NCBI GenBank assembly: GCA_945900755.1
Contig: CAMDKS010000008.1
Span: 31,130-95,129 of the forward strand
From: Bdellovibrio sp. ZAP7
GTDB taxonomy: Bacteria; Bdellovibrionota_B; Oligoflexia; Oligoflexales; RGVZ01
Direction: 5' to 3'
DNA length: 64,000 nucleotides
Position numbers and translations under genes: made by a program. Below the pieces are notes generated by a model. That model was not told the DNA's origin and ran no database searches. It was given only the letters and a program-made list of their open reading frames with translations. Numbering within the stretch: position 1 is the first letter of the stretch; every line of letters starts with the position of its first letter. Below are positions 27,967 to 31,340 of this stretch, piece by piece.

Positions 27967-28250
27967 CAGCGAATTAAAACTCTTCAACGAATTGGCGCTT
28001 GGATTCGTCCATTCAGCTCAGCCCTTTTTTTGACTACTCCGCCAATAGTTTTAAGGCATTAATATTATTGCTACTATTTGATTTGTTGGTTTATTGTACA
28101 ACCGACGAAGGCTACCGCCTGACTGCAACCGACTAAAATAACTACTGATTAAAATTAACCCTCAAAGTATTCGAAGTGTCACAGAGACCTTGCTACCTTA
28201 CTTATAAGCAATCAAGACCTCGTTATTTTTCTCCTAGAGAGTAAACCCAT

Positions 28251-28530
28251 GAACTTGATTGTGCCTGTTGTACCCACAATAGGAAGCGGATCTTTGTCAT
28301 TTTAGATTTCGATTAAACCAAAGTGAGGCGAGGCTTCTTTGCTCAATTGCCGCTTCCTGTGCTCCATTAGGAGGACCCCTCCAATTTGCCTCTGGCTTTC
28401 CAGAGGCGTCACAGCCGATGACTTCTCACTTTGCGAAATTTAGGATGATGCCCCAGTAGCCGGGGCCGGTGACCTCCAGATTAGTGGATGCACCGGCTCT
28501 TCCTCCCTCTGAAATCAGGCTCCTTTAACC
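28251..28530. ncRNA. Candidate structured non-coding RNA, class and strand unassigned
   Basis: Multiple perfectly complementary segments: 28258-63/28275-80, 28281-89/28350-58 (9 bp), 28319-27/28425-33 (9 bp), 28370-74/28378-82, 28388-95/28400-07 (8 bp), 28450-54/28462-66, 28466-71/28491-96. They lie in an ORF-poor gap. Confidence 0.55.
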
Positions 28531-28709
28531 AAAAGCTGCCAAAAAATGCTTTGAAATATAACAGGAATTGCCCAAGCGGCGGCCGCAAGGTTGCGGTAAC
28601 GCATTGAAATTAATCATTAAAAATAATTATTTTGATTATTTAACAACCTCGCCTCAAGTCTTTTTGTAGCCCTCCGAAGCCATCTAGGATGTTTTGATAG
28701 GAGGCCATC

Positions 28710-29207
28710 ATGACAAATTCATTCTTAGAAGATACCGTACTCACAGATAGCCTGACAGCCGAGTCTAATCGCGGGAAATCGCTGTTTGAACGCTTTGGCG
28801 GCAGGGCAACTCTTGAACGCGTTCACATTATCTTCTACGACAAGCTTTATGCGCACCCGTGGCTGAGCTCATTTTTTATCGGCATCAATCAAAAGCTTAT
28901 TGAAAACCAACAATCAGATTTCTTTTCACAGCTAACGGGTGGACCGAAAAACTATAGCGGCCGAATGCCGCAGCATGCTCATGCCCATATTTTTATTTCC
29001 GAAGAGCTTTTTCTCGTACGACACGAACTATTAAAGGAATCTCTCATCGAAGGCCGAGTGACGTCACCCGAGCTAGAAGAATGGTTAAAAATAGACATGG
29101 CATTCAAAAGAGTACTATCCAAACAATCACCTCGTGACTGCCAAAAGCGTTATGTCGACGAAGATATCGCGGTGATCCCTGATCCACATTCCCGCAAGGC
29201 CTCATAG
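28710..29207 (+). CDS. Truncated hemoglobin (2/2 globin)
   Basis: SLFERFGGRATLERVHIIFYDKLYAHPWLSSFF ... LTGGPKNYSGRMPQHAHAHIFISEELFLVRHELL, a typical trHb pattern. Confidence 0.85.
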   Translation: MTNSFLEDTVLTDSLTAESNRGKSLFERFGGRATLERVHIIFYDKLYAHPWLSSFFIGINQKLIENQQSDFFSQLTGGPKNYSGRMPQHAHAHIFISEELFLVRHELLKESLIEGRVTSPELEEWLKIDMAFKRVLSKQSPRDCQKRYVDEDIAVIPDPHSRKAS

Positions 29208-29380: not shown

Positions 29381-29980
29381 TTACGCAGCTCGTCCCGCCG
29401 TGGCAAAACGAATTAGGCGCTCAAACTCGCCTGTATCTGCTTGACGCAGCGCGGCCAGGTACTCCTTCCTATCAATAGAATCACCGACCAAGGTGTCTCG
29501 GGCGCCCCAAGAAAGAGGTGGTTGTTTTAGGTATTCGAGATACATGTCGGCCGTTAGACGACTTACCCGACCATTGCCGTTTGGGAATGGATGAATAGAG
29601 ACAAGACGGTGATGAAACCTGATAGCTGTCTCAATCGGTTGAAACGTTTTGTGCTGTTCCCAGTAGATTACGTCATCACATAATTTCTTAAGTTCTTCGG
29701 GAATCTCGTGCCAAGACACGCCAAAGTTTGTTTCGTGTTGTCGAAATTTCCCTGCCCACCTCCACGTTAGATCAAACATCTTCTTATGAAGAAACTTGAT
29801 ACCTTCTATACTAACAAGTTCACGCTTCAGCTTTCGACTCTTGCTCGCCCAAACTACTGCAATTTGAATATTGGTTTGTTCGAACTCGTTAAGTTCGCTT
29901 TGAAGTGTGAGACGTGGGATCAAACCTTTGGCAGCATCTGGATTTAAAGGAGTTACTCCTTCAGGATACTTAATCTCCAT
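29381..29980 (-). CDS. Fic-domain protein, 'mobile mystery protein B' type
   Basis: HPFPNGNGRVSR Fic core; overall layout as in the mobile mystery B family; paired with an Xre-like partner. Confidence 0.85.
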   Translation of the reverse strand: MEIKYPEGVTPLNPDAAKGLIPRLTLQSELNEFEQTNIQIAVVWASKSRKLKRELVSIEGIKFLHKKMFDLTWRWAGKFRQHETNFGVSWHEIPEELKKLCDDVIYWEQHKTFQPIETAIRFHHRLVSIHPFPNGNGRVSRLTADMYLEYLKQPPLSWGARDTLVGDSIDRKEYLAALRQADTGEFERLIRFATAGRAA

Positions 29981-30463
29981 CTAGTCGGCTTCCCAAAGGC
30001 GCTTATCGAGATTGCCAAGTAGATCATTAGCGAGTTCACGAATTTGTTGTTCACGTTCTTTTTTTGCAATGGATTGATCTTCCAGCGCCATGGTCCGCGA
30101 GACTTTATTAACAAATTTCGTTGCAGCTTTGAGAGCCCTTTCTAGCAAAACACCCTCAAGCCCATCGGGGTGATTTGGTATGACAGCATAGACAACACGG
30201 CAATTCACTGCTTCGGCCAAACGCCGTAACGTAGCTAACTCGATCGTTTGCTTTTCTTCGCTGGCTTCTAGCTTTTGAAACGCCTGTCTGCTGATGCCCA
30301 GCAACTTCGCAAACTGCGTCGAAGACAACCCGAGCGCTTCACGGATGTCCCGTATCCAGCCACTGCTAGGAAAGGACTTACTAGTCAGAGGCTTGAGCTG
30401 AGAATACAGGGATTCAAGCTGTCGCCTCCTGAGTTTCTTTCCCTTGTTTTTTCGTATATCCAT
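29981..30463 (-). CDS. Xre-like HTH protein, 'mobile mystery protein A' type
   Basis: GWIRDIREALGLSSTQFAKLLGISRQAFQKLEASE HTH, followed by VYAVIPNHPDGLEGVLLERA. ATG at 30463 likely (ORF extends to 30490). Confidence 0.83.
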   Translation of the reverse strand: MDIRKNKGKKLRRRQLESLYSQLKPLTSKSFPSSGWIRDIREALGLSSTQFAKLLGISRQAFQKLEASEEKQTIELATLRRLAEAVNCRVVYAVIPNHPDGLEGVLLERALKAATKFVNKVSRTMALEDQSIAKKEREQQIRELANDLLGNLDKRLWEAD

Positions 30464-30478
30464 AACACAATCGTAACC

Positions 30479-30493
30479 TTTATGTTGCATAAA
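30479..30493. promoter_or_regulatory. Candidate operator: perfect inverted repeat TTTATG-TTG-CATAAA upstream of the Xre/Fic pair
   Basis: Palindrome read directly; sits about 16 bp upstream of the proposed start of the HTH gene. Confidence 0.45.
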
Positions 30494-30731: not shown

Positions 30732-31303
30732 CTATATCTTTAGCATTTGAAAGGCCATTACACCCAAGACTAGGGCCCCAAACAACGTAACCACCGGGCC
30801 AAATTTCTTGGACAGTTTTCTCGCCAAATAAAGCCCTGCGATCGTGGAAATAAAAGCCCATACTCCAATCGAAATGATAAAGGGGAGTATGGGCTTACTG
30901 GTAATCCCCAACCCAATTCCAACTCCAAAAGCGTCTAAGCTTGTGGCAAATGAGACGAGTAGAATTTTCGAAAAACTATGAAACTCCAATTTCGGTTCAT
31001 TTGAAGCGTCTGTTTTATTTTTCCCAAAAAGATCTTGATAGCCTTCGTAGGCCATGTGCAACGACACGCCCGCCAGTAGAGTAAATGCAATCCAATGATC
31101 TATGGCAGCAAACTTACTGACGACATGGGTTCCGAGCAAAGTGCCAAGCAACGCCACCACGGCCTCCGCTCCGCCAGAGGAGGCTGCAAATTTAAGTGCA
31201 TCTTTTTGAGAAAAGGGCTTCATTCCCATGGCTACTGCCGCAGAGAATGAATCCGCACTTAACAGCAGACCAATGCTACAAACTTCCAAAAAAAACATCA
31301 TTT
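30732..31303 (-). CDS. MntP-like (DUF204) putative Mn2+ efflux membrane protein
   Basis: LLLSADSFSAAVAMGMKPFS ... ATSLDAFGVGIGLG, the duplicated MntP D-x-F/A-x-G motifs. Confidence 0.82.
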
Positions 31304-31340
31304 GCCGCCTCCTGAGCAATTACAAAAGTATCGTAAAACA

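Follow-up and report, generated by a model that had tools for sequence, protein, structure and literature searches.

OLE, ROOL and GOLLD are large structured bacterial ncRNAs whose functions are poorly understood (PMC12286853). Within the phylum considered here, the attack-phase sRNAs of Bdellovibrio are lineage-restricted intergenic ncRNAs, and one of them, merRNA, carries a c-di-GMP riboswitch (PMC3627812). Here, we analyse an element found in a window of 64,000 nucleotides (the whole stretch of DNA under study) of the source genome, denoted G000. It resembles OLE, ROOL and GOLLD in being long, elaborately folded and pseudoknot-compatible, in having been found by covariation and in its obscure role (PMC12286853), but at about 365 nt it falls short of their length (about 580 to over 800 nt), has no sequence or Rfam match, and is chromosomal, no placement in a phage or tRNA island being established. 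Like the Bdellovibrio attack-phase sRNAs, it is intergenic, belongs to the same phylum and is not conserved outside its own lineage (PMC3627812); unlike the case of merRNA, an Rfam scan of the window finds no c-di-GMP riboswitch. The 6S RNA, tmRNA, RNase P RNA and SRP RNA are likewise compact trans-acting structured RNAs, tmRNA and RNase P RNA with pseudoknots, but each of these is present elsewhere in G000 or alongside the new RNA in its relatives. Our analysis indicates that positions 28142-28505 of the plus strand are very probably the gene for a stand-alone, highly structured ncRNA of ~365 nt, so far seen in one lake-dwelling genus of Oligoflexales (phylum Bdellovibrionota).

Results

The first-pass annotation of the window had pointed to two interleaved 9-bp pairings, A/A' (AGGAAGCGG, 28281-28289, with CCGCTTCCT, 28350-28358) and B/B' (CAAAGTGAG, 28319-28327, with CTCACTTTG, 28425-28433), together with several local hairpins, in the interval 28033-28700. 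Both pairings are exact as quoted, as are all the local hairpins at their positions. Taken alone, however, a pair of 9-bp complementarities within 668 nt is a weak observation, near chance level: perfect 9-mer complement pairs number four in the interval, shuffled versions contain 1.14 (P = 0.07), and ordinary stretches of 668 nt from the same sequence hold 1.6 on average. It is the comparison with relatives, in which the same element recurs with compensatory changes, rather than the quoted pairings, that makes the finding solid.

A DNA search of the genus recovered the same element in three other species, hereafter G003, G004 and G005, with identities over 28125-28506 of 93% (G004), 80% and 72%. 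The conserved block in these relatives corresponds to about 28125-28506, so the originally proposed interval was too wide: 28510-28700 and most of 28033-28120 lie outside the conserved element. The description of the region as an ORF-poor gap holds, there being no conserved ORF on either strand; a small peptide starting at an ATG near 28251 (M N L I V P V V P T I G S G S L S F) was considered and rejected, its start codon not being kept in G003 and G005. The features of the locus, all on the plus strand, are as follows.

28134..28139, plus strand: possible -10 hexamer TAAAAT, 2 nt before P1, suggested by the alignment
28142..28505, plus strand: probable structured ncRNA, approximate extent, with the 5' end placed from P1 and the 3' end from P10 and a conserved CUUCNUC tail
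28142..28147, plus strand: P1 5' strand CUACUG, which pairs with 28454-28459 (CAGUAG) and closes the molecule in the consensus fold
28163..28173, plus strand: P2 5' strand CAAAGuAUUCG, paired with 28287-28296 (CGGAUCUUUG) in the consensus fold; invariant in 4/4 species
28190..28211, plus strand: hairpin UUGC(U)...AGCAA with conserved UACCUUAC, from the alignment, in which G005 is locally misaligned
28258..28280, plus strand: hairpin H1a, AUUGYG-loop-CRCAAU, with one covarying pair (UA/UG/CG)
28264..28271 with 28276..28283, plus strand: H1b, an alternative to H1a
28281..28289, plus strand: A strand AGGAAGCGG, overlapping H1b (AGG) and P2 (CGG)
28297..28311, plus strand: P5a 5' strand, paired with 28434-28448; 3 pairs changed on both sides
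28312..28318, plus strand: A-rich, one-sided 7-nt bulge between P5a and P5b, from the alignment
28319..28327, plus strand: P5b, identical to the B strand, paired with 28425-28433 (B'); 5/9 pairs changed on both sides
28350..28358, plus strand: A' strand CCGCUUCCU, within a nearly invariant run
28359..28412, plus strand: P6, GUG/CAC, closing a two-hairpin domain; invariant
28362..28382, plus strand: CUCC-GGAG-CUCC, two mutually exclusive conserved hairpins
28389..28406, plus strand: P8 hairpin CCUCUGG/CCAGAGG; 3 pairs changed on both sides
28425..28448, plus strand: B' (P5b 3' strand) and P5a 3' strand, by covariation
28450..28466, plus strand: P9, GCCCC/GGGGC, competing with the base of P10
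28463..28499, plus strand: P10, 3' hairpin GGGCCGGUG/CACCGGCUC, by covariation; 2 pairs changed on both sides

Covariation in homologs and folding energy relative to shuffled controls had both been proposed as checks with the first-pass annotation. Across the four sequences, 99% of the cells are paired and 14 of the 63 pairs are changed on both sides, compared to 4.5 in shuffles; none of the 500 shuffles reached 14, and slid-partner controls yielded 0-3. B/B' is proven by covariation and extends into a 24-bp interrupted helix made of P5b and P5a across the 7-nt A-rich bulge. By contrast, A/A', P2 and P6 never vary and are thus beyond the reach of the covariation test with four sequences. The closing helix P1 includes a U-G pair in G005 and is a weak, bulged variant in G003, and P10 occupies a terminator-like position, with no U-run in G000. 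The fold energy lies well beyond that of shuffles for the whole 668-nt interval (z = -4.45), and for 28138-28508 it is z = -5.9 on the plus strand versus -2.6 on the minus strand; the homologs in G005 and G003 give z of -4.3 and -5.8, respectively. Read as the plus strand, the helices contain 17 G.U cells versus 1 A.C cell, and this 17 to 1 excess points to the plus strand as the RNA. The candidate -10 hexamer reads TGTAAT in G005 and TGAATT in G003, with no clear -35 box seen 5' of it. At the 5' end of the RNA, 28140-28175 is a very conserved AT-rich block (YTGATTAAAWTTWA...CAAAGTATTCGA), of which P1 and P2 explain a part, the middle being without an assigned pairing.

Two of the smaller helices proposed initially call for correction. 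CTGTG/CACAG (28357-28361 / 28410-28414) is present but shares two bases with A', so that A/A' leaves room for GTG/CAC alone. Of GGAGG/CCTCC, the relatives keep just GGAG/CTCC, against which an equally conserved CTCC/GGAG competes.

The element is single copy in the genome and present in 4/6 species of the genus. A covariance model of its core, R1, was run against 43 genomes from the order and 58 from the class, and recovered exactly these four elements with E of 3e-58 to 2e-62. Beyond them it gave a single match, at E 0.01 in G010 (R1 score 19.8), which lies inside a coding gene, is without A' and was rejected as a remote homolog. No remote homologs were found at the syntenic genes of G001 and G006-G009. 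Given that the element is absent from the sister genus and from two members of the genus, one of which is 66% complete, its distribution appears to be restricted at the genus level among the genomes examined. A scan for the A...A' pattern identified the three relatives as Oligoflexales MAGs (contigs CANLUT010000003, CANILH010000036 and CANJQY010000020); matches to this pattern from Lamprocystis, Novosphingobium, Chloroflexi, Deltaproteobacteria and Albimonas were dismissed, none scoring beyond noise with the covariance model. No viral or plasmid relatives of the element were found.

At the gathering threshold of Rfam 15, no family matches the element, and a tRNA is the only match in the window; at E up to 10, the element yields only noise, and the three homologs are likewise without a family match. 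RNase P RNA, tmRNA and 6S RNA were each found elsewhere in G000, and the genomes of G004 and G005 have both SRP RNA and the new RNA. SRP RNA was not found in the assemblies of G000 and G003, although relatives have it, which is probably an assembly gap. The proposal that the region encodes an undescribed structured ncRNA is thus borne out by the covariation in relatives, the lack of an Rfam match and the presence of the housekeeping RNAs elsewhere.

Upstream of the element, the order E1 dehydrogenase - thymidine kinase - 163-aa protein - HAD hydrolase is common to G000 and G005 and is the same in G004 and G003 within the stretches examined. The RNA directly follows this block in G000, G003 and G004, and follows an inserted aspartokinase gene in G005. 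In G004, the HAD hydrolase gene beside the RNA is truncated (L002 1995-2411, minus strand; a 138-aa ORF matching only at residues 2-93) and the RNA is intact. Globin is the downstream gene in G000 and G004 alone. Next to the RNA in G003 and G005 is instead an unrelated, convergent gene for a 240-260-aa protein without a Pfam match, its 3' end towards the RNA, and the globin homolog of G003 is located on another contig. The RNA is 93% identical between G000 and G004, versus 72% for the upstream coding stretch, and in the comparison with G005 no other DNA match occurs within 2.7 kb. In these alignments, the RNA is more conserved than the neighbouring genes and, judging from gene order, it is independent of the flanking coding genes.

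Further downstream in the window, on the minus strand, a Fic-domain gene (29381-29980) adjoins an Xre-type HTH gene (29981-30490), possibly forming a toxin-antitoxin-like pair (29381-30490). An MntP-type manganese exporter gene follows at 30732-31319 (minus strand). Genes for MntP-type exporters often carry a yybP-ykoY riboswitch; no Rfam riboswitch match was found near this one.

The A/A' complementarity is invariant in 4/4 species and, at 9 bp, forms the longest Watson-Crick helix common to all of them. Only 1 of 1500 permutations of the invariant columns yields a helix as long, so the complementarity is unlikely to be accidental. The A strand, however, is also claimed by two other conserved helices, H1b (through AGG) and P2 (through CGG), so that A/A' may coexist or alternate with them. 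The interleaved pseudoknot envisaged in the first-pass annotation accordingly stands as plausible: its B helix covaries, and its A helix is invariant and overlaps P2 and H1b. Keeping A and A' single-stranded costs 10.6-12.2 kcal/mol and stacking of the A helix returns about 19.4 kcal/mol, leaving a net energy of -7 to -9 before the pseudoknot penalty. This penalty is of similar size. As a nested helix replacing B, A/A' makes the fold 9-14 kcal/mol worse, so a simple switch of A versus B is unlikely. With A/A' and the competing P2 and H1b predicted at nearly equal energy, a pseudoknot and a switch are both possible, and so are a shortened A helix coexisting with its competitors, a full exchange or a standing pseudoknot.

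Discussion

Selection on the whole fold, the invariant junction blocks and the independence of the flanking genes favour a trans-acting RNA that would work by shape, most likely together with a protein. The reasoning is that what is conserved is a closed fold whose junction and loop blocks are invariant, not one exposed seed. We infer a role in trans for the ncRNA, most likely as the RNA component of a ribonucleoprotein or otherwise as an RNA that depends on its fold. The main rival of this shape-based role, which we consider unlikely, is that of an antisense sRNA acting in trans, in which the invariant pyrimidine-rich A' (CCGCUUCCU, or CCCUCCA) would pair with the ribosome-binding sites of mRNAs and would be masked by A or by GGAG in the off state. 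The core of A', CUUCCU, is complementary to the Shine-Dalgarno-like AGGAAG, and A', although nested folds often leave it unpaired (mean P unpaired 0.53-0.74), does not vary among the four species. Nevertheless, typical seed-type sRNAs do not share the length and closed form of this RNA, and the covariation reflects selection on the fold as a whole.

Other explanations fit the comparative data poorly. The switching leader suggested at the outset, i.e., a riboswitch or other cis-regulatory leader that would control the truncated haemoglobin gene at 28710 by toggling between A/A' and the competing helices, would account for the alternative pairings of near-equal energy and for the fact that the RNA precedes globin in G000 and G004. 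It is highly improbable, being contradicted by synteny: the downstream gene differs among the relatives and is convergent to the RNA in G003 and G005, with the G003 globin homolog on a different contig; moreover, between the RNA and the globin gene lie 205 bases without conservation and a 3' hairpin that is conserved. Similarly, it is very doubtful that the inverted repeats function at the DNA level, as a mobile element end or recombination site, even if they do lie at a variable junction where the downstream genes differ: the element is single copy, the gene upstream is the same in G000, G003 and G004, and both the 17:1 ratio of G.U to A.C for the plus strand and the strand asymmetry of the fold energy speak for RNA. 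A diverged SRP RNA, RNase P RNA, tmRNA or 6S RNA would be of similar size and complexity, and no SRP RNA was detected in the G000 assembly, but it is hardly conceivable that the element is one of these, with three of them elsewhere in G000, SRP RNA beside the new RNA in G004 and G005, and nothing but noise from Rfam even at E 10. The coexistence of the two in G004 and G005 also led us to discard the idea of an SRP substitute.

For the trans-acting structured RNA, the invariant A' strand might form a pseudoknot by docking onto A, whether lastingly or in alternation with P2 and H1b, in which case the ncRNA may have two states. A stronger version is possible but decidedly tentative, namely, that the element represents a new class of bistable RNA from a phylum of predatory bacteria, in which the invariant 9-bp A/A' pseudoknot exchanges with the equally conserved P2 and H1b, and the two states act in trans. 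The near-equal energy of the pseudoknot and the nested states is a concrete prediction.

The host genus is poorly studied and known here only from MAGs, and the covariation model and coordinates make the RNA directly testable if a culturable relative is found. The element would constitute a new structured RNA family outside Rfam that evolves more slowly than the nearby genes, which implies a conserved function.
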